From the NCBI GenBank assembly GCA_030849065.1, contig JASAON010001430.1, forward strand, positions 1 through 26,049: DNA of 26,049 nt, given 5' to 3'. Position 1 is the first letter of the stretch; each line of letters begins with the position of its first letter. Below are positions 3,193 through 24,224 of this stretch, one piece after another. The DNA comes from Jaenimonas drosophilae. Taxonomy: Eukaryota > Euglenozoa > Kinetoplastea > Trypanosomatida > Trypanosomatidae. The notes under the pieces were generated by a model. The model saw nothing but the letters and a program-made list of their open reading frames with translations. It was not told the origin of the DNA and ran no database searches. The position numbers and the translations under genes were made by a program.

Positions 3193-3302
3193 GCCAACAG
3201 CGGCACTGAAACAGAACAGCAACACAACATACACACACACACACATACATACGTACGTACATACATACATAGATACACACACAATCATAGATACCTACAC
3301 TG

Positions 3303-6300
3303 ATGGAGTTTGAGCAAACTAGCTTACTTCGTGAGGCCAACATGCCCTTCATGGCTAGGGTGTTTGGTGCAGAAAACACAAAATACAGCAACAAGAACAA
3401 CAACAACACGAAGATGAAGATGATGCAGGTCAATGCAGAAGAAGTAGGTGTGGCGGCACAGGAGCATCTCCGCCATGATCGGCTGCGTGCGTGGCAATAC
3501 TCACTCCCAGCCAATATCGAGCACAGTGCATCTCATCCGCTGGTGTGGGGCCATGAAAATCATGAAGTTGTTGCAACAAAGATTGCTGGAGGAGCATCTC
3601 ATCATGCCGCAGACATCTTTACGGATGAAGATCGACGTGAGCTGCGTGCGGAGTTGTTGGCAGCAGCACAAGAACAACCACAACATTCATCATCGCCAGG
3701 CTTGTTTCGTCAGCGCATGCGTGAGCTACAGACACGCGTGGAGGAACAAATGGAGGTACATCGTGGCATCTCTCGAGCAATGTTGGATCTTGATCGGCTG
3801 GAGCGCGAGGCGCGCCAACAACGTGCGGAGGCACACACACAAACGTTGGTGCATCTTCTTCGTCAACGGCAATCGTCGGTTCTACGACGTGTCTTTGGTG
3901 GAGATGATGATGGCCTCAACTTCACAACAACACCAACACCACAACAACCTACTACTACTACTACAACAACACAGCAACCTACTACAACAACAACTACAAC
4001 TTCAACAGCACAACCAACACAAGCACCAACAACAACGGGGGTTGTACCCACCACACAAACAAGTAGCTCAGCCAGTCCAGCTCTTCAAGACCTCCTCAAG
4101 ACCTTCTCACAGCCACGACGTAAACCAGCAACAACAACAACAACGAATGATGCACGTGTGGCAGATGTAGCACCAAGGGTGGTGAGCCGCGTTGACGTGG
4201 TTCAGCCACCACCTCCTCCTCCATCCTACATCATCACTCGGTGGGTGCGTGTGGAGCCTGCAACATCAACGCCCACACGTGAAGAAGAACATGAAGAAAC
4301 TATCATCAGCAACAACAACACAAATACAAAGATGGATGAGCTTCATGAGGTGGAGTCCAAGGCTACAAGTGTGCGGGATGATGCATCATCTGTGGCACCA
4401 TCATCGGTCGTGGAGGAAGTGGATGATGATGATGATGCGCACGAGGCTGCTTCTTCATCAAGCACCTCTTCACTCTCCACTCATGTTGCGGATGATGCGG
4501 ATGATGTTGCATCGAGCATGGAAGATGTGGCCTCCATCCCCGAAGACGATGGCGTTGCCTCCGCCATCCTCAGTGAAGTGGTGGATGATGTTGTAGATGA
4601 TCTCGATGATGATCTTCATCGTCATCATCATCAGCAACGTGTGGATGGCATGAACGTCGCTGCATTGCGCGAGGTGCTGGAGCAGTTTTATGTTGCGTGC
4701 AAACATGGCAACGCATTGACGTCGGCGTTGATCTCGGCTCCACCAACAACGCTGAAGGACGTACTCCCCCAAAACAACAAGAAGAATGATGGTGATGATG
4801 ATGGTGATACGATGGAGGAAGATGATGTTCGTGTGCGTCGTGCCACGATGCGTGAAGCGGATGCAGAACTCCTCCGTTGGCGGCAGCTCCTCGCCAGTGA
4901 TGTTGCCAACGTACGCCATCTCCGCACGTTTCTCCAACACCTCCGCCACAACATCAACATGATGGACCTACAACGCAAAGCACATCGAGCGAAGATGGTG
5001 CAGCTCAGGAAGGCGCAGAAGCTGGCCAAGGTGGTGCAACGCATGCGTCAACGGCCGCAGATGAGCGTGGATGAGGTGGTGGATGATCTCGACGAGAACT
5101 TTTTCAGTGAAAACAACAACAACAAACATCGCAATCGTGAGTGGAAGCGGAAGCAGATGCGGCACCTACTCACGGGTGATGCTGATGATGATGATGTACG
5201 TGATGATGATGATATCGTGGAAGAGATGGACTTTGATGTGCAAGATGTTGTTGGCAGTGAAGATGATGTTGTGGATGATGTTGTGGGCTACATGAGCGGC
5301 AGTGAAAATGATGATGGCAGCATTGCATCCATGGAGTGGGACGTTGATGATGATGATGATGTTGGGCGACGTTCGCCGCTCTTTGGGGTTGATGTTGAGG
5401 ATATTTTGGATGGTTTGGTGGATGCGGAGGTGACGAGTGTCATGGAGGAGGATGTGCTCGATGCATTCGAGACACATTTCGTACAACAACTGGTGTCAGT
5501 GGATGTGGATGAGATTGATGATGATGTTGTGGCGGAGCTCGAAGGGTACAGCGATGTGGATGAGATTGAGTATCCGCCCGCGTGGAGATCACGTACAACG
5601 AAGCGCGCAGCAGCACCATCAACATCATTCACGTCATTGGTCGTGGATGAGGTGGAGGACCTCATCAACGATGATGAAACATCGCCACAACAACAACAAC
5701 AACATCATCTTCCATCATCATCATCTGCATCATCGGTGGCGGAGCGGGAGGCGAGTGATGTAGATGGCTCCATCCACAGCAACAACAAGAGCAGCACGGA
5801 GCATGAGCATGATGATGATGATGATGATGATGCGTTGGAGATGATGGAGGATCTTCTTGCCGAGGACGAGGAAGAGATGAATGAGTTGCGTGCGGACATT
5901 GAACGTACACGACCGCGGCGCCAACGCGCACTGCGTCAGGTGAGGCCAACCACCTTCACGGAGATTTACACCACACAAGAAACACCTCATGATGGTTCTA
6001 AAGATGATGATGGTGATGATGCATCATCCTCACCACAACAAGAACACGTGGCTGATGCAGCTCAGCACGTTGATGATGAGGTTGAGGTAGCTCCACAAGC
6101 AGAAGTAGCGCCACATCCATCCAATGATGTTGTGGCTCTACATGATGATGACGTGCAGCACGCATCAACCAATGTTGGCACCGACTTGGCGATGGATTTT
6201 GCTGCACAAGTGAGTTGGGTGGAGCAACAACGCCGTTTGTTTTCAGATATCCTTCCGGTGACGTCAAGAGCTCAACACGATGCTTCAACCAACATCAATG

Positions 6301-6518
6301 ATGATGATCATCATGATGATGTGCAGGTGCGTGCCTTCACGCATCATTGGGGTGTGGTGGAGTCGTTGATGCAAACCAAGTTTGGCCGCCATCGCGTGTG
6401 GCCGTCCTACCAGCTCATGAGCGATGAAGATGAAGATGGTGGTGATGATGATCATGATGATGTTCTTGATGATTGGAGTAGTGAGCTCGATACGAGCACC
6501 TACTCCAGTGATGCATGA
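3303..6518 (+). CDS. Large acidic repeat-rich protein of unknown family
   Basis: A 1071-residue protein I do not recognise. In order: a short N-terminal region; a helical, charged segment with coiled-coil character (about residues 108-199, many Arg/Glu/Gln/Leu); a Thr/Gln-rich linker (about 208-258) made by CAA/ACA triplet repeats; a proline run near 302; a very acidic Asp/Glu/Ser stretch; a second, basic helical segment (about 505-590, rich in Arg, Lys, Leu, Met); then a long acidic tail with many Asp and Val residues and repeated motifs of the type DEVVDDL, VDEIDDDVV. The alternation of basic helices and acidic tails resembles scaffold, chaperone-like or nucleolar proteins, but that is only analogy. 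The ATG at 3303 is preceded closely by a CA/TA microsatellite and fits a trans-spliced start. The single uninterrupted frame through so many triplet repeats argues that it is translated. Ends in TGA. Confidence 0.8.
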   Translation: MEFEQTSLLREANMPFMARVFGAENTKYSNKNNNNTKMKMMQVNAEEVGVAAQEHLRHDRLRAWQYSLPANIEHSASHPLVWGHENHEVVATKIAGGASHHAADIFTDEDRRELRAELLAAAQEQPQHSSSPGLFRQRMRELQTRVEEQMEVHRGISRAMLDLDRLEREARQQRAEAHTQTLVHLLRQRQSSVLRRVFGGDDDGLNFTTTPTPQQPTTTTTTTQQPTTTTTTTSTAQPTQAPTTTGVVPTTQTSSSASPALQDLLKTFSQPRRKPATTTTTNDARVADVAPRVVSRVDVVQPPPPPPSYIITRWVRVEPATSTPTREEEHEETIISNNNTNTKMDELHEVESKATSVRDDASSVAPSSVVEEVDDDDDAHEAASSSSTSSLSTHVADDADDVASSMEDVASIPEDDGVASAILSEVVDDVVDDLDDDLHRHHHQQRVDGMNVAALREVLEQFYVACKHGNALTSALISAPPTTLKDVLPQNNKKNDGDDDGDTMEEDDVRVRRATMREADAELLRWRQLLASDVANVRHLRTFLQHLRHNINMMDLQRKAHRAKMVQLRKAQKLAKVVQRMRQRPQMSVDEVVDDLDENFFSENNNNKHRNREWKRKQMRHLLTGDADDDDVRDDDDIVEEMDFDVQDVVGSEDDVVDDVVGYMSGSENDDGSIASMEWDVDDDDDVGRRSPLFGVDVEDILDGLVDAEVTSVMEEDVLDAFETHFVQQLVSVDVDEIDDDVVAELEGYSDVDEIEYPPAWRSRTTKRAAAPSTSFTSLVVDEVEDLINDDETSPQQQQQHHLPSSSSASSVAEREASDVDGSIHSNNKSSTEHEHDDDDDDDALEMMEDLLAEDEEEMNELRADIERTRPRRQRALRQVRPTTFTEIYTTQETPHDGSKDDDGDDASSSPQQEHVADAAQHVDDEVEVAPQAEVAPHPSNDVVALHDDDVQHASTNVGTDLAMDFAAQVSWVEQQRRLFSDILPVTSRAQHDASTNINDDDHHDDVQVRAFTHHWGVVESLMQTKFGRHRVWPSYQLMSDEDEDGGDDDHDDVLDDWSSELDTSTYSSDA

Positions 6519-15703: not shown

Positions 15704-15936
15704 ATCATCCCTGGAGGTAGTACAGATGTTTCTGGATTCATTATATTCAGCACAACACAAACATGAATGTTGTGTGCGCACCCCCACTTCAGCACGTTCT
15801 GAGTAGTGGATTGAGTGAAGGCTTGTGCGAGAGATGTGTGTTTTGCTGCTTCGTGGAGATGATCCAAACTTCATGGGATGGTGTCTTTCCGCTTTGCGTA
15901 CATGATGCTTCAATGTGTGTGTGAATGCTATTCATG

Positions 15937-15978
15937 TCCCTCTCCCTCTCTCTCCTTCTCGTTCATCATCTCTCACAG
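15937..15978 (+). promoter_or_regulatory. Trans-splice acceptor of the CCCH-type Mex67 gene
   Basis: An almost pure pyrimidine tract (15937-15960) is followed by AG at 15977-15978, only 9 bases before the ATG at 15988. This decides the start: the upstream in-frame ATG at 15925 would lie before the splice site and is excluded. Confidence 0.7.
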
Positions 15979-15987
15979 CTCCGCCAA

Positions 15988-17760
15988 ATGGCGAATCCAT
16001 ACAAGAAGAGGAATGATAAGCACGCCAAGAACTTCAACACACCATGCAAGTACTTCATTCGCGGCAAGTGCAACAACGCCCACTGCCCCTACCTCCACGT
16101 GAAGGGGAACCACAGCAATGGCAACGCCAGCACCGGTGATAAGATGGAGCAACACACCGCCGCCTCGGGCATCTTGCAAACAATGCTGAAGCTCTTCTTT
16201 GAGAAGCAACAAAGCAGCATCTACGCTGCTGAATTAGGCATCCTGGATCTCTCCGACTTGCTGCGCTACGACGATCTCAAACCGATCGCGTCCAGCATCG
16301 ATTTCAACACGATGAGCTTCTGCGAGGCGCTCTTCGCCAACGTGAAGGAGCTCATCCAACCTCCGCCACCGGTGCTTCGTCTCGACCACAATCACATCAA
16401 AACGGTGCTCCCCCTCGTCAAGGCCCTCGAGGCCAACCACCTCCACGAAGGATTGCGCGCACTGAGCCTCTGCAGCAACACCCTGGGCAACAACACCAAC
16501 GCCAACAACATCAACGATGGCATCTTCGATGTTCTGAAGCGTCTAAAGGATCTCAACGAGGTGCATCTCGCCGGGAACCCGCTCTGCGAGGAGCCCAACT
16601 ACCGCGCACGTGTGAAGAAGGCGCTGCCACACCTCCTCGGACTTGATGGGGCGGCGATTGTGAGCCCCCCACTCGCGCTGCCGTGGCCCATCTTCAAGGA
16701 TCCGAGCGCACCACCGCCCACCTCGGAAGATGGCGCCAGCACGGCCTACGACGCTGACCAGCAACACGTGCTTCACTTCATTCAGAACTCCATCTTGGCA
16801 CCTCTGGAGGCCAACCAAGGCGTGGATGCGGTGTCAGATGCCTACGCCACACACGCCATCTTGACGTTTTGCTGCAGCACACAAGAAGCGCTCGTGGAGC
16901 TGCCAAAGAAGGCCGGCACGAGCTACCATCGCGACTGCGTGCGTGATTTGGTGGGCTTCAAGATGCGTCAGCGGGAGGCCAACCACAACATCTTGCTCGG
17001 CACCAAGTCGGCGCAGGTGGCATCGGGGCGCACGAAGGTGTGCGCGCAGCTGGAGCATTGGATGTATCCGTGTGGGTTTGAGGTGCGGCACTGTTTGCAC
17101 GCGAGCCCCTCCGTCGTGGTGCTGGATAATCGCGGGATGGGCCCCAAGGCGGTGGTTGGCGTGAAGGAGGCCATCTCCATCGTCAGCGTTCATGGAGTGA
17201 TGATGTGGAGCTACAAGGGCAGCAGCACATCATCCTCACCCGCGTGTATCAAGCGCAACATGGCACGAACGTGGGTGGTGAGCCGCGTGGAGGCTGGACG
17301 ATGGCAGGTGGCGAATGATATGATTACCATCTTTCCTTTTAGTGGCACGATGCCCGAGGCGATGGCGGGCGGAGAGGTGGCCGATCTCATCACGGCTGAC
17401 CTCCACGACTATGATATGGTCTTCGCTCCCGCCGTGGATCCCAATCGTGCCGCACGTCTTGGTCGGCGCTATCATGTTCCCGCGAATGTGGTGGCCACCC
17501 TGTTGCGATGCACCAAGTCCGATGCAGAGCTCATCACGATCCTCTCCGACCTGCGCGATGCACCGCTGGAGCTCTACGAGAATTGTGCGCGCATGGTGGA
17601 GATGGAGCCCATCCCGGCCATTGTCTTGTGTCGGGCCGTGGTGCGTCTTGGTGTTTCACCAGAAGTTGGCGTTGAGCTCATGCGCCAACACGGGCTTGAT
17701 TGGATCGCCATTGAAACCGCTGTGGCAGCCTCGACGGCAACAACGTCGTCGTCCTCCTAA
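15988..17760 (+). CDS. MEX67: Mex67/NXF1-like mRNA export factor with CCCH zinc finger
   Basis: A 590-residue protein. It begins with a basic stretch and one CCCH zinc finger, C20-x7-C28-x4-C33-x3-H37, a known hallmark of kinetoplastid Mex67 that takes the place of the RNA-binding domain of other eukaryotes. The leucine-rich-repeat region follows (about 55-225: ILDLSDLLR, VLRLDHNHI, LRALSLCSNTL, LNEVHLAGNPLC, LPHLLGLDG), then an NTF2-like domain (about 255-480: VLHFIQNSIL, then HAILTFCCST and later strands ending with WQVANDMITIFP), and a helical C-terminal region (about 495-590), possibly UBA-like. It should form a heterodimer with Mtr2 and export mRNA through nuclear pores. Codon use is GC-rich with few triplet repeats, fitting a well-expressed gene. 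The paralogue at 12647 is on the same strand. TAA stop. Confidence 0.9.
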   Translation: MANPYKKRNDKHAKNFNTPCKYFIRGKCNNAHCPYLHVKGNHSNGNASTGDKMEQHTAASGILQTMLKLFFEKQQSSIYAAELGILDLSDLLRYDDLKPIASSIDFNTMSFCEALFANVKELIQPPPPVLRLDHNHIKTVLPLVKALEANHLHEGLRALSLCSNTLGNNTNANNINDGIFDVLKRLKDLNEVHLAGNPLCEEPNYRARVKKALPHLLGLDGAAIVSPPLALPWPIFKDPSAPPPTSEDGASTAYDADQQHVLHFIQNSILAPLEANQGVDAVSDAYATHAILTFCCSTQEALVELPKKAGTSYHRDCVRDLVGFKMRQREANHNILLGTKSAQVASGRTKVCAQLEHWMYPCGFEVRHCLHASPSVVVLDNRGMGPKAVVGVKEAISIVSVHGVMMWSYKGSSTSSSPACIKRNMARTWVVSRVEAGRWQVANDMITIFPFSGTMPEAMAGGEVADLITADLHDYDMVFAPAVDPNRAARLGRRYHVPANVVATLLRCTKSDAELITILSDLRDAPLELYENCARMVEMEPIPAIVLCRAVVRLGVSPEVGVELMRQHGLDWIAIETAVAASTATTSSSS

Positions 17761-19417: not shown

Positions 19418-20375
19418 GGTGATGGGGTGATGGAGGTGGCCGAGGATGCAGATGGGGGCTTCTGTGGCATCGTCACGTTGGCGTGGTTGTGGTTGTTTCG
19501 CACGTGTGGGCGTACAACCACACGCACAGAGGTGCCCGGCGTACTGAGGCACTAAATCCATATCTTCGTCCTTTGGCACTGCTGATGATGAAGATCCACG
19601 TGCGCCGATTCACATCGCCTCTCCACCACCGCAACAGCAGCAGAGCTCGTCTGCCGCTGCGTGGATGGGGGGGCCAAGAATGGCGAAGAGTTGTAAAGAT
19701 GATCGATAATTAATTTCTTTTGTTGTTGTTTTGGCGTCGTTGGATAATGGGCAGTGTAAGCGTGAGAGTTGGTGGATATAAGATGGAAACTCCCCACAAC
19801 ACACACGGAAATGTTAGATGGTCTCACCGTCATGCGCAATGCACGTTGGTGTGCCGCTACATCTGCTGCCTTGCTATTCTCCTCGAGTGCGACGGGTACG
19901 AGCGCCGTCGTGTAAAGGGGCCAGGCTGTGCATCCCTTTTTTCATCATCTTTTTTGCTGGCACGGCAGCCCTCATCCAACCCAGACACACACACACACGT
20001 GGTGGAGCAGGAGTATATATGCGTAGTTGTGATGGTGTGTGCCCAGAGTGTTGATGCTTGAATCATGATAAATCTTCATCTTTCTTCGTCCTCTTCTTCT
20101 TCCTCATGTGCAGGTTGGAATACGTGCTGCTGCAGCACAGAACCACAGCCACACCTTTTGGTTATTAGGTAGGTCCTGTTGCTGCTCTATCCTGCTTCTA
20201 TCGTCTTTTTGTGCTCGGTTGGAACGACTTCGCCTCCTGCCATTGCTCATCATCTCTGATATACGAGAGGACCAGTGATTCACCCCCCGTTCATGTGTGT
20301 GTGCAGCACGCCAACCACACATACGCACCCAACGCCTTAAACAACACAACACACTTACATTTACTCCCTCGCATC
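19418..20375 (+). other. Spacer and 5' leader ahead of the PGK fusion gene
   Basis: No gene recognised. It includes a 7-bp inverted repeat (cgtgtgg 19503-19509 with ccacacg 19518-19524), a 6-bp one (around 19888-19908, cgacgg/ccgtcg), an AT-rich stretch near 19700-19720, a CA repeat near 19985, and the strong splice acceptor ending at 20113. From there the mRNA leader would be 262 bases. I found no tRNA-like cloverleaf. Confidence 0.55.
20076..20113 (+). promoter_or_regulatory. Strong trans-splice acceptor of the PGK fusion gene
   Basis: A near-continuous pyrimidine tract (cttcatctttcttcgtcctc continuing to 20104) ends at AG 20112-20113. It is the clearest acceptor in this part of the window. 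Confidence 0.7.
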
Positions 20376-23111
20376 ATGTCTGTTGGCTTCATTGGCTCGA
20401 AGCACACCGTCTACGACGTGTACCCCCTTCGTGGAAAGAAGGTTTTTGTGCTCGTGGACCCCCAAAATGTGCTCGACATGGATCAAGTACGTGAGGCACC
20501 AAACACCCTTAGCACCATCGCCTACCTCCTCGAGAAGGAGGCCTCCGTCGTGGTGGCCTCCTCCTTCGGCCCCTTGACGGGCATCCTGATGAATCTCTCC
20601 CGCAAGGAACGCGAGCTGGCCCTCCACGCCTTCAAACAGGAACATGGCATGGGCTACACCAACTTCTTCTCCGCCCTCCCACCAGACGCGAAGATGAGCA
20701 TCTTAAGCTCCGTCGAGGGCCTCAGCCTCACACGTGAGATGAGCAACGTTCCCAACACGGGCAAGACCACTCTCTTCGGCTCTCTCACCACCGCTCAGAA
20801 GATCCAAGCCCTGCACCACTACGACCCGCACCTCACCTTCGCACCCGTCACTACCTTGGCATTCGTGGATGCCATTTCTGCAGCACTGCCCGAGGCCACA
20901 GTACACTTCGCCCCCGACTCCCTTCGCGCGCCCATTCATGAGTTGAAGCCCGGGGAGGTGATGGTGCTGGAGAACCTGCGCTTCTACAAGAATGAGACCT
21001 CCGCTGAGTCGCAGGAACGGAGTGAGATGGCCGACGTCTTGGCCGCAGACCTCGACATATTCATCAACGACTCCTTCGGCACAGCCTTTGCGCGTCATGC
21101 TAGTACCATTGAGCTTCCACGACGCCTGCAACACGGCGCGGCGGGTTTGGCCATGGACCGTGAGCTGGCCTTCTACTCCAAGTTCCTCGGCCACCCTGCC
21201 CGCCCACTGGCCCTGGTGATGGCGGGCCACAACATCCAGCAAAAGATGCACCTCCTCCACAGCCTCGTTGGACGCGTGGATCGCGTGCTCCTCGGCGGTG
21301 CCATCGCCTTCCCCTTCTTGGCCGCCAAGGGCCTTCACTGCGGCCGTGGCTATCCCACAGGGGCTGACGAGCTCACGATTCACCGCCCCCACACCCTCGG
21401 CAACAAGTCGGTGAGCAGCCAGGCCATTCCATGCTCGCAATACGCCCGCGAGCTTCTGGCCCTCTTCGCCGCCAACAACATGTCTGTGGTGCTCCCCGTT
21501 GACCACATCATCAACACCAACCCCGAAGATGCACGACGCGCCACGCGGCTGGACAACACCGCCATCCCGCCCGAGGCCTACGCCGTGGATTGCGGAACCA
21601 AGACGGTGATGCTCTTTTGCCGCTGCCTCCGCGACTGCCGCACCGTTGTTTGGACGGGCACGTTTGGCTGGGCCGCCAAGGGCTACGTTGAGGGGAGCAC
21701 CAGCTTCGCCGCCTCCCTCGCCCAGCTCAACTGCCTCACCATCGTGAGCGGGCGATACACCATGGCCGCGGTGCACGCGGCGCAGGTGTGGGATAAGATT
21801 CAGCACGGCAGTAGCGGCAGCATGTCTTGCCTGGAGGTGCTGCAGGGTGCGCCACTCCCCGGGGTGGAGGCCCTCTCCGACGTGGTGCCGCCCGCTGGGG
21901 AGTCGGAGAACAACGCCAGCCTCAGCGTCAACGAGCTCGTCCGTCGGCTGCCCCTCTTCATGGGCTGCTCCTCGCACCAGCTGAAGATCATCGCCCGCAA
22001 ATTCATCCGACGCGAACACGTTCGCGGGGACTATCTCGTCAACCGCGGTGATCGGCATGTGCGGCTCTTCGTCGTGGCACGTGGAGGGCTCGTGGCGACC
22101 TGCGACGAAGAGAGCAGCTCCGCCCCGGCACGCTTCATCTCCAAGGGCCAGACCATTGGCATGTACGAGTTTATCACCCAAGCCGCCGCCATGGAAACGG
22201 TGCGTGTGGCACACAAGGAAACAGTCACCTACCAACTCACGAGCAGCGCCCTCAACGAGCTCCTCAACGCCCAGGCAGACTTGTCGGCGCAGCTCTTCCA
22301 GAACTTATCCACCCCATTGTGGGTTATTGCCAATGACGACTACCAACAGCAGCAGGATGTGGCCTCCATCGCCACACGCAACGCCAGCCGAGTGCGTGTA
22401 CCACAACCGGGCGGCATTCCTCAGCATGGCTCCGGCTTCTGGTTAGACCTCCTCTCGGACCTCATCTCCACCGTCGCCCTGCAGTCGCTCACGATGCGCT
22501 ACACTCCGTACGTGGAGATGCAGTGCGCCTCCTCCGGCCTCCCTGCCCGCCAGCTCAAGGGTATTCAGTCCTTGCAGCTCCATCAAGGCCTGCCGTGTAC
22601 GATGCTCCTCTCCGTCGCCCGCAATGTGCTCTATCACCAGTGCGTACACCACCTCGGCCGGCCGTGGTTGGGGAGTGTGCTGAGCTCCATCCTCGTCTCC
22701 CCACTACGTCTTTTGGCCTACGGCATCACCTACAACGACATCAACTTCAAGCTAGTCTTGGACGAGGCCTTGTGTGGGGCAGCGGTGAGCGGGGCTCCGC
22801 TGGCCGCCTACGCCATGGCCCTCACGGCGCAGCGCCGGATTGAGCACCGACGCGGTGTGGTACCCACTGCAGTTCAGCTCCTCCTTCTCGCACTGTCTCG
22901 GCTGGTGTTGGGTCTGGCCGCCTTCCCAATTATTTTCCAGCGCAACTTTGTGTATACGCAACCGTCGGCGAGTCGTTGGTGGAGTGCGCAGGCCTTCCGC
23001 GCCTACGAAGCGAAGCAGGTGGCGTTGATTCTCATCCGCTACCTCACGCAGACCCTTCTCAAACTGATCTCCGTCACTCCTCCCCCACCAAAGGGCAAAG
23101 TACGTGTCTAG
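20376..23111 (+). CDS. Degenerate PGK fused to CNB-like and membrane domains
   Basis: A 911-residue three-part protein. Residues about 10-505 are phosphoglycerate kinase: VLENLRF (197-203), FINDSFGTA (229-237), LLGGAIAFPFL (305-315), VVLPVD (371-376), VDCG (404-407), VVWTGTFG (424-431), LPGVEALS (494-501). An insertion (about 65-155) sits in the N-terminal half, where trypanosomatid glycosomal PGK-A also has one of about 80 residues. Key residues are changed: the SHLGRP block reads SSFGPL (62-67), the GGAKV-x-x-K block reads AGHNIQQK (283-290, first Lys lost), and GGGDT reads SGRYT (458-462). Residues 519-650 fit a cyclic-nucleotide-binding fold (LPLFMGCSSHQLKIIARKF, GDYLVNRGD, LFVVARGGL) with a weak phosphate-binding cassette. 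Residues 685-911 are hydrophobic, with probable membrane spans near 760-785 and 828-855. Normal PGK makes ATP in glycolysis; this one is probably catalytically dead. ATG 20376 follows a 262-base leader. TAG stop. Confidence 0.88.
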   Translation: MSVGFIGSKHTVYDVYPLRGKKVFVLVDPQNVLDMDQVREAPNTLSTIAYLLEKEASVVVASSFGPLTGILMNLSRKERELALHAFKQEHGMGYTNFFSALPPDAKMSILSSVEGLSLTREMSNVPNTGKTTLFGSLTTAQKIQALHHYDPHLTFAPVTTLAFVDAISAALPEATVHFAPDSLRAPIHELKPGEVMVLENLRFYKNETSAESQERSEMADVLAADLDIFINDSFGTAFARHASTIELPRRLQHGAAGLAMDRELAFYSKFLGHPARPLALVMAGHNIQQKMHLLHSLVGRVDRVLLGGAIAFPFLAAKGLHCGRGYPTGADELTIHRPHTLGNKSVSSQAIPCSQYARELLALFAANNMSVVLPVDHIINTNPEDARRATRLDNTAIPPEAYAVDCGTKTVMLFCRCLRDCRTVVWTGTFGWAAKGYVEGSTSFAASLAQLNCLTIVSGRYTMAAVHAAQVWDKIQHGSSGSMSCLEVLQGAPLPGVEALSDVVPPAGESENNASLSVNELVRRLPLFMGCSSHQLKIIARKFIRREHVRGDYLVNRGDRHVRLFVVARGGLVATCDEESSSAPARFISKGQTIGMYEFITQAAAMETVRVAHKETVTYQLTSSALNELLNAQADLSAQLFQNLSTPLWVIANDDYQQQQDVASIATRNASRVRVPQPGGIPQHGSGFWLDLLSDLISTVALQSLTMRYTPYVEMQCASSGLPARQLKGIQSLQLHQGLPCTMLLSVARNVLYHQCVHHLGRPWLGSVLSSILVSPLRLLAYGITYNDINFKLVLDEALCGAAVSGAPLAAYAMALTAQRRIEHRRGVVPTAVQLLLLALSRLVLGLAAFPIIFQRNFVYTQPSASRWWSAQAFRAYEAKQVALILIRYLTQTLLKLISVTPPPPKGKVRV

Positions 23112-23471: not shown

Positions 23472-24224
23472 ATGTGCGGTGGCGGCAGCAACTCGACGAC
23501 GATTGACTACGAGACCAACGCCCGCTCTCAATACCTGGCGGACCTCGATGGCACCCTCAAGAAGTTTGATCACGCTCTCGTCTCCACCATGAACAGCTAC
23601 CGCGACCTCCTCGTGGCCTACGACCAGGTTGGTCAGTTCCTCGGCAGCGTCGCGGGCACGAGCGGTGAGAACGTCAAGCAGCCCATCTTCCACACCCGCG
23701 ACTGCCTGCGTGAGATGAAGGACAAGGGCCCCTATGTTGCCCTGAACACGAGCTTCCACAAGGGCGTGAATCCCGCCATCGCCAACATCAAGACGGAGCT
23801 GAAGAAGGTCAACGCCTCCCTCGATGAGCTCAAGAAGAGCCAGAAGGAGTACGACAGCATCCGCGCCAAGGTGGAGAAGCGTGAGGCGGAGGCGGCCAAG
23901 AAGGGCACCGCCCTCACCACCAACGCCGACTACAAGAAGGACTCTGCCAAGCGCGATACCGCCAAGAAGAACTACGAAACCAAGAAGGCCAACTTTGACA
24001 ACATAATGCACAAATTTCAGGACACGGTGGATAAGACGTTGACGAGTGCCATGAACTTCTACCTCCACTCCAACGCCTCCATGTGTGAGTACATGCAGGT
24101 CCGTCTCACCACCCTCCGCACCAACGGCAGCAGCGACACGAAGAACGATATCGACCGCATGGTGGATGGCCTCCGCCAGGGCCGCACGGTGAACCCCCTC
24201 GCCGCTCCACCGGCCGAAAACTAG
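23472..24224 (+). CDS. BAR-domain protein
   Basis: A 250-residue protein whose core (about 17-215) is three long helices with BAR-domain character: a first amphipathic helix (YLADLDGTLKKFDHALVSTM), a middle one with ALNTSF then VNASLDELKKSQKEYDSIRAKVEKR (the YDS-R-K-EK pattern typical of amphiphysin-like BAR domains) and a third ending NFYLHSNASMCEYMQVRL. BAR dimers bind and bend membranes, in endocytosis or tubule formation. The helix linking is Lys/Ala-rich. The N terminus MCGGGS has a cysteine at position 2 and could be palmitoylated; the usual myristoylation MG start is absent. A short Gly/Pro/Ala tail follows the core and no SH3 domain is present. Codon use is GC-rich with no triplet repeats, fitting a well-expressed gene. 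ATG 23472, TAG stop. Confidence 0.82.
   Translation: MCGGGSNSTTIDYETNARSQYLADLDGTLKKFDHALVSTMNSYRDLLVAYDQVGQFLGSVAGTSGENVKQPIFHTRDCLREMKDKGPYVALNTSFHKGVNPAIANIKTELKKVNASLDELKKSQKEYDSIRAKVEKREAEAAKKGTALTTNADYKKDSAKRDTAKKNYETKKANFDNIMHKFQDTVDKTLTSAMNFYLHSNASMCEYMQVRLTTLRTNGSSDTKNDIDRMVDGLRQGRTVNPLAAPPAEN

Follow-up and report, generated by a model that had tools for sequence, protein, structure and literature searches.

What does a phosphoglycerate kinase (PGK) do once it has lost active-site residues and been joined, in one reading frame, to a cyclic-nucleotide-binding (CNB)-like domain and a hydrophobic C terminus? The question is raised by a gene on contig JASAON010001430.1 of the trypanosomatid Jaenimonas drosophilae (assembly GCA_030849065.1), of which we analyzed positions 1 to 26,049 of the forward strand, here called the window. 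The gene lies at 20376..23111 on the + strand and is a single ATG-to-stop frame of 911 amino acids, with a computed product of 99.5 kDa and a pI of 8.9. A first-pass annotation had taken it for a pseudoenzyme that senses metabolites or nucleotides at a membrane, possibly that of the glycosome, and has a domain order not known from any described protein. The gene is, however, PGKL, the family of which was already described in 2014 and 2020, and the order is not new. With somewhat more confidence than doubt, we read the protein as a membrane-anchored scaffold of disabled modules, derived from an insert-bearing PGK that was fused to CNB-homology and membrane domains.

In the parts available of the two papers on this family (Brown et al. 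2014, PMC4106842; Rojas-Pirela et al. 2020, PMC7729029), PGKL has the order PGK-CNB-(HTH)-membrane, is predicted to have neither catalysis nor cyclic-nucleotide contacts, and is represented by pseudogenes in Leishmania. The earlier paper states that the C-terminal part "contain[s] no recognizable domain," and the later one describes PGKL as widely retained and expressed. With Trypanosoma brucei PGKL and its orthologues, the window protein shares the domain order, a mass of about 100 kDa, and the loss of both catalytic and cyclic-nucleotide residues. Searching with the whole protein (about 8,000 candidates scored per search, which makes the homologue count a lower bound) returned at least 10 homologues of 45 to 57% identity, one of them from Angomonas deanei. 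Nine of the 10 cover 93 to 99% of the query and the tenth, P0011 from Novymonas esmeraldas, covers 70%; the homologue searches did not return T. brucei PGKL itself. Precomputed Pfam annotation lists the CNB domain in six of the 10, and alignment shows it in the remaining four. When residues 505-911 served as the query, a 795-residue T. vivax protein annotated only as phosphoglycerate kinase (P0014) was found at 40% identity over 72%. It holds PGK and CNB domains within one protein with a shortened C terminus, and its size fits the 86-kDa T. vivax PGKL of the 2020 paper (PMC7729029), for which we take it. A quick tree of 76 PGKs places the PGKLs, P0014 included, on one side of a branch with an SH-aLRT of 100.

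These searches give 12 PGKL proteins in total (P0001 to P0011 and P0014, with P0001 being the window protein). Eleven were used for the residue map and the insert test (P0011 excluded, its N terminus being missing). Alignment A2 and the counts of columns and conservation likewise rest on 11, without P0010, which has a gap inside and is much extended at its 3' end, and the trees on 10 (both excluded). The 10 other rows of A2 are 43 to 58% identical to the window protein, the lowest value being that of P0014; seven of them (P0002 to P0006, P0008, and P0009) are full length, and P0007 diverges at its C-terminal end. The one-frame fusion claimed at first pass is borne out by the absence of any stop over the 911 codons, by the coverage of the homologues, and by P0014. 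A frame error joining separate genes is thought unlikely, because the homologues span the domain junctions.

The PGK domain (20376..21884, + strand, residues 1-503) is readily recognized: Pfam PGK matches residues 17-491 with an E value of 5.3e-73, and the best PDB match is a PGK, 13pk, at 4.2e-50. The first-pass annotation had described a fold with its structural motifs kept and its catalytic ones altered, and both halves of that description stand. VLENLRF, NDSFGTA, LLGG, LPVD, DCG, and LPGVEALS are all present, and so are the altered SSFGPL, AGHNIQQK, and SGRYT. We mapped nine residues by alignment in T. brucei PGK numbering (D24, N26, R39, H62, R65, R135, R172, K219, and E345). Six binding or catalytic residues, N26, R39, H62, R65, K219, and E345, are absent from all 11 PGKLs, as is the third glycine of the GGG loop; R135 is retained in 10 of the 11 and R172 in 4. 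In the window protein H62 is replaced by S63, R65 by P66, K219 by N286, and E345 by A433, and N26 falls in a gap. Catalytic motifs lying in shifted positions were ruled out by this residue-level alignment.

No loss among the nine is seen in any of 14 canonical-group PGKs, 8 of which carry kinetoplastid names, or in the PAS-PGK of the organism itself (1/1). Of 10 bacterial-type PGKs, 9 likewise keep the full set and one carries R65K. Among 41 PGKs that bear an insert in the N-terminal lobe (PGKA-type), 32 keep all nine and 9 have lost at least one. Active-site decay is thus not confined to PGKL; one of those nine is the organism's own PGKA. This enzyme (P0013, at L002:1003-2508 on contig C32) carries R39L, H62D, R65N, and R172M and keeps K219 and E345. 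Mean pairwise identity is 47 to 58% in the PGK parts of PGKL, compared with 78% among 12 canonical PGKs.

Could PGKL nevertheless be an active PGK with unusual residues? The strong overall fold score in Pfam and the PDB speaks for it, and the loss of N26, R39, H62, R65, K219, and E345 speaks against it, in agreement with the conclusion reached for T. brucei in the parts available of the 2014 paper (PMC4106842), where four Trypanosoma PGKLs show no conservation of the residues that line the ATP pocket. The residues by which we judged an active PGK (R39, H62, R65, K219, E345, and the GGG loop) are lacking, in the loop the third glycine, and we regard activity as extremely improbable. Judged from its sequence, the kinase is almost certainly dead, and the designation of PGKL as a pseudoenzyme is upheld.

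The second module, a CNB-homology domain (21930..22295, + strand, residues 519-640; Pfam PF00027), had also been recognized at first pass. Pfam cNMP_binding matches residues 546-631 (E 1.3e-5); the whole protein scores 25.6 bits against a curated cutoff of 27.5, and residues 505-690 scanned alone score 28.5 bits, above it. The PDB matches are PKA-R, PKG, and SthK, with KCNH2 as a weak one (E 0.093). No Pfam match to an HTH domain was found in the whole protein or in residues 505-690 alone, and the 2020 paper likewise reports none for the PGKLs of T. vivax, T. cruzi, and Bodo saltans (PMC7729029). In an ungapped alignment with PKA-R, the phosphate-cassette glutamate corresponds to M596 in 11/11 PGKLs and the phosphate-binding arginine to residue 605, which is alanine or serine in 11/11. 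A functional CNB domain is recognized by this arginine, and residue 605 lacks it. In one gapped alignment with PKG I, residue 598, which is acidic in all 11, stands opposite the cassette glutamate. The arginine is the only firm cassette loss, the glutamate having possibly been replaced by acidic residue 598, and the CNB domain is probably empty. The CNB-homology domains of KCNH channels are not known to bind cyclic nucleotide; they share with PGKL a CNB fold without the cassette arginine, although PGKL is not a channel.

This is where the proposed sensing role has to be weighed. It would require that one of the degenerate pockets still bind some ligand, which may be a different one, and relay this to the membrane domain. 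The CNB pocket stretch, residues 592-612, is highly conserved, residue 598 is acidic throughout, the PGK substrate-site R135 is widely retained, and kinetoplastid PKA-R is said to prefer ligands other than cAMP. Set against this, both cassette residues are replaced in the ungapped alignment, K219, E345, and G376 on the nucleotide side of the PGK are absent from 11/11, and the ATP pocket is not conserved in the four Trypanosoma PGKLs mentioned above. Because the signature residues for substrate, ATP, and cyclic nucleotide are gone, sensing as first proposed is not supported, and sensing of a changed ligand strikes us as rather unlikely. The CNB core is nonetheless the best-conserved part of PGKL, with a mean pairwise identity of 64% compared with 47 to 58% in the PGK parts and 47% in the C terminus. 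This conservation suggests that a surface has been kept, not that the domain is decaying, and it argues for a retained function other than catalysis.

Where the PGK part came from is indicated by an insert in its N-terminal lobe (20580..20855, + strand, residues 69-160). That kinetoplastids have a PGK isoform with an insertion at the same place had been pointed out at first pass, and this was the most useful clue it offered. A profile built from the 41 insert-bearing PGKs matches the inserts of all 11 PGKLs at 22.2 to 42.5 bits, the window protein scoring 42.5 bits at residues 76-149. Of 11,000 shuffles used as the control, 10,043 were reported, with a top score of 12.6 bits. At the same site, insert-free canonical-group PGKs have 7 to 24 residues and PAS and bacterial-type PGKs 7 to 9. 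PGKL thus has the N-lobe insert of about 80 residues and of shared sequence that marks the insert-bearing lineage. By eye, the inserts of PGKA (P0013) and PGKL (P0001) seem to contain two similar GKTxxFxxLxxxxKxxxL units, as though from an internal duplication. PGKA shares the homologous insert with its GKTxxFxxL-like units, but it lacks the CNB and membrane domains, and 32 of the 41 insert-bearing PGKs keep the nine active-site residues.

On this sequence evidence, the homologous insert in 11/11 PGKLs, we conclude that PGKL is descended from an insert-bearing PGK. The shared insert runs counter to the inference of the 2014 paper, in the parts available of which no phylogenetic evidence is seen for an origin of PGKL from a glycosomal PGK gene (PMC4106842); the 2020 paper calls the N-lobe insert specific for PGKAs (PMC7729029). 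Homology of the PGKL and PGKA inserts was not found in print among open-licence PMC papers (titles, abstracts, and parts of both PGKL papers). Since B. saltans P0033 and further rows outside the trypanosomatid clade carry the insert as well, the donor may have been an ancestral PGK that bore the insert, not glycosomal PGKA itself. In the free quick tree of the 76 PGKs, PGKL stands next to the bacterial PGKs on a stem of 2.72 substitutions per site, a placement that we read as long-branch attraction. Three trees constrained to group PGKL with kinetoplastid PGKs had log-likelihoods higher by 16.6 to 20.9 (p-AU, 0.81 to 0.82); the groups were named after the tree had been seen, and these trees show nonrejection only. 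The organism's own 18.8-Mb genome contains a PAS-PGK, the insert-bearing PGKA, and the PGKL gene. Contig C32 ends 11 codons into the frame that follows PGKA (L002:2761-2793, MALVPKKTIDD), and it seems that another PGK (probably canonical B/C) has been cut by the contig end rather than being absent.

The C-terminal domain (22428..23108, + strand, residues 685-911) had been described as hydrophobic. That it is a membrane domain is likely, but in a 19-residue Kyte-Doolittle scan it is only moderately hydrophobic, with one strong stretch (centers 836-852). AlphaFold2 models residues 641-911 with a pLDDT of 80.3 and a pTM of 0.76 as six long helices, with breaks in two. The full-length model is weak (pLDDT 69.1, pTM 0.40, much of the CNB domain under 50), and in it the C-terminal helices lie at the same places. 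When the C-terminal model was compared with VIA-align, ranks 3 to 11 were UCP1 and ADP/ATP carriers, and ranks 1 and 2 were Tetrahymena complex IV chains, which we take to be carrier proteins; in a Foldseek search of BFVD, named carriers made up 8 of the top 9 matches. The domain is accordingly predicted, from structure modeling alone, to have a mitochondrial-carrier-like fold, its six-helix arrangement resembling that of SLC25 proteins in fold only.

Several results weigh against such a carrier-like anchor. A Foldseek search of the PDB did not favor the carrier fold, and the carrier motif P-x-[DE]-x-x-[RK] is absent from the C terminus of 11/11 PGKLs. Profile-profile comparison with carriers of the same genome (11 of 30 loci, being unique open reading frames of 270 to 460 amino acids, each holding two or more carrier motifs) gave a probability of 0.4%, compared with 0.1% for a reversed control. 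Other sequence searches were likewise negative. With a single-repeat carrier profile (17 of the 30 loci, 13 with a stop in the fixed cut having been dropped), the 11 C termini scored -3.8 to 1.3 bits, and none stood out from 2,211 decoys (2,200 shuffles and 11 reversed sequences; 1,413 reported by hmmsearch), the best of which reached 9.6. When 8 of the 11 C termini were combined into a profile, nothing in the PDB matched at an E value of ≤10. Pfam scans of the same 8 gave no carrier match (PF00153) and only weak single-member ones (DUF3097_N, 0.0055; Caa3_CtaG, 0.048; UPF0182, 0.11). Unlike SLC25 carriers, the domain thus shows neither detectable sequence similarity nor the motif, and it has 227 residues compared with 265 to 318 in the matched carrier chains. 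A carrier-like fold for the PGKL C terminus was not found in print within the open-licence PMC papers and the parts of both PGKL papers covered. Elsewhere in the genome (G000:C312:35225-36973; loci L010, L012, and L017), one 747-residue frame holds six Mito_carr repeats, apparently a head-to-tail fusion of two carriers.

If the fold is as predicted, the domain could in principle be a working carrier that transports a solute and is gated by the PGK and CNB domains; the SthK channel, one of the PDB matches of the CNB domain, likewise has a CNB domain next to a membrane domain. The motif is missing throughout, however, and none of the three carrier-motif slots placed by eye (705, 778, and 853) holds an aspartate or glutamate in any of the 11 PGKLs. 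We consider transport very unlikely.

For the scaffold that we favor, the following course may be envisaged. An insert-bearing, PGKA-type PGK would have lost its active site and been fused to a CNB-homology domain and a C-terminal membrane domain. The six-helix, carrier-like domain without the carrier motif would anchor the protein in a flagellar or glycosomal membrane, and the inert PGK and CNB domains would lie outside it as protein-binding surfaces that dock PGKL to the axoneme or another partner. For the J. drosophilae protein we infer the scaffolding, the topology, and the location. According to the parts available of the 2014 paper, Ty-tagged PGKL is axonemal in procyclic T. brucei and is retained in detergent- and salt-extracted flagella (PMC4106842), which supports partner binding; the 2020 paper gives glycosomal-membrane predictions for the PGKLs of T. 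cruzi and T. rangeli (PMC7729029). T. brucei null mutants are viable, with normal growth and swimming (PMC4106842). These normal mutants and the loss of the gene in Leishmania limit the importance of PGKL in culture and count against a scaffold.

The same observations would suit a weaker version of what was proposed in 2014, an evolutionary relic of a lost flagellar glycolytic step that has no function today. So would the truncation or absence of the membrane part in T. vivax and T. congolense (PMC7729029), the degenerate GAPDH-like protein in the same T. brucei flagellum (PMC4106842), and the irregular P0007 and P0010. The identity kept across the A2 rows, most of them full length, the conservation of the CNB domain above the remainder, and the wide retention and expression of the family do not suit a relic, and we think it improbable, a little more so than sensing. 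It is evenly balanced in our judgment whether PGKL unites three ligand-handling machines, all disabled: a PGK that descends from an insert-bearing one and is dead, a CNB domain that has lost its cyclic-nucleotide site, and a mitochondrial carrier that was captured and lacks its gate motif.

A candidate spliced-leader acceptor, a pyrimidine-rich tract with an AG end read from the sequence, lies at 20080..20113 (+ strand), 262 bases upstream of the ATG. All genes of the window are on the same strand, in the order ankyrin-repeat protein, unassigned open reading frame, strumpellin, ThiF-rhodanese, LRR protein, MEX67 (15925-17757; NTF2-like domain, Pfam NTF2_MEX67 E 2.2e-72), eRF1, PGKL, and a 250-residue frame; such same-strand runs are usual in kinetoplastids. 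MEX67 is close to PGKL in T. brucei too (Tb927.11.2370 and Tb927.11.2380 in the sources available, followed by flabarin-like at.2400 and flabarin at.2410), whereas in the window eRF1 separates the two. The 250-residue frame 3' of PGKL (23472-24224) begins with MCGGG and has a weak Pfam Vps5 match (E 0.0063, below the cutoff); its position, size, and N-terminal cysteine suggest that it is perhaps a flabarin-like flagellar BAR protein. A 1072-residue frame with a CTG start at 3300-6515 has no Pfam match at an E value of ≤0.1.

As far as the available literature shows, PGKL has remained an orphan since its description in 2014, a conserved protein that is dead by sequence and has a C-terminal part to which no domain was assigned. 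The PGKA-type insert places it in the history of PGKs where trees cannot, because of its stem of 2.7 substitutions per site, and the carrier-like fold would give the C terminus a topology that can be tested and would explain its only moderate hydrophobicity. These two additions to a known family deserve testing, as they bear on whether kinetoplastids once ran a separate flagellar glycolysis or turned a spare insert-bearing PGK into a scaffold. If PGKL does unite three disabled machines, a nontransporting carrier fold would have been reused as the anchor of a flagellar or glycosomal pseudoenzyme, and the 2014 inference, by which nothing points to a duplicated glycosomal-type PGK gene as the source of PGKL, would be overturned.
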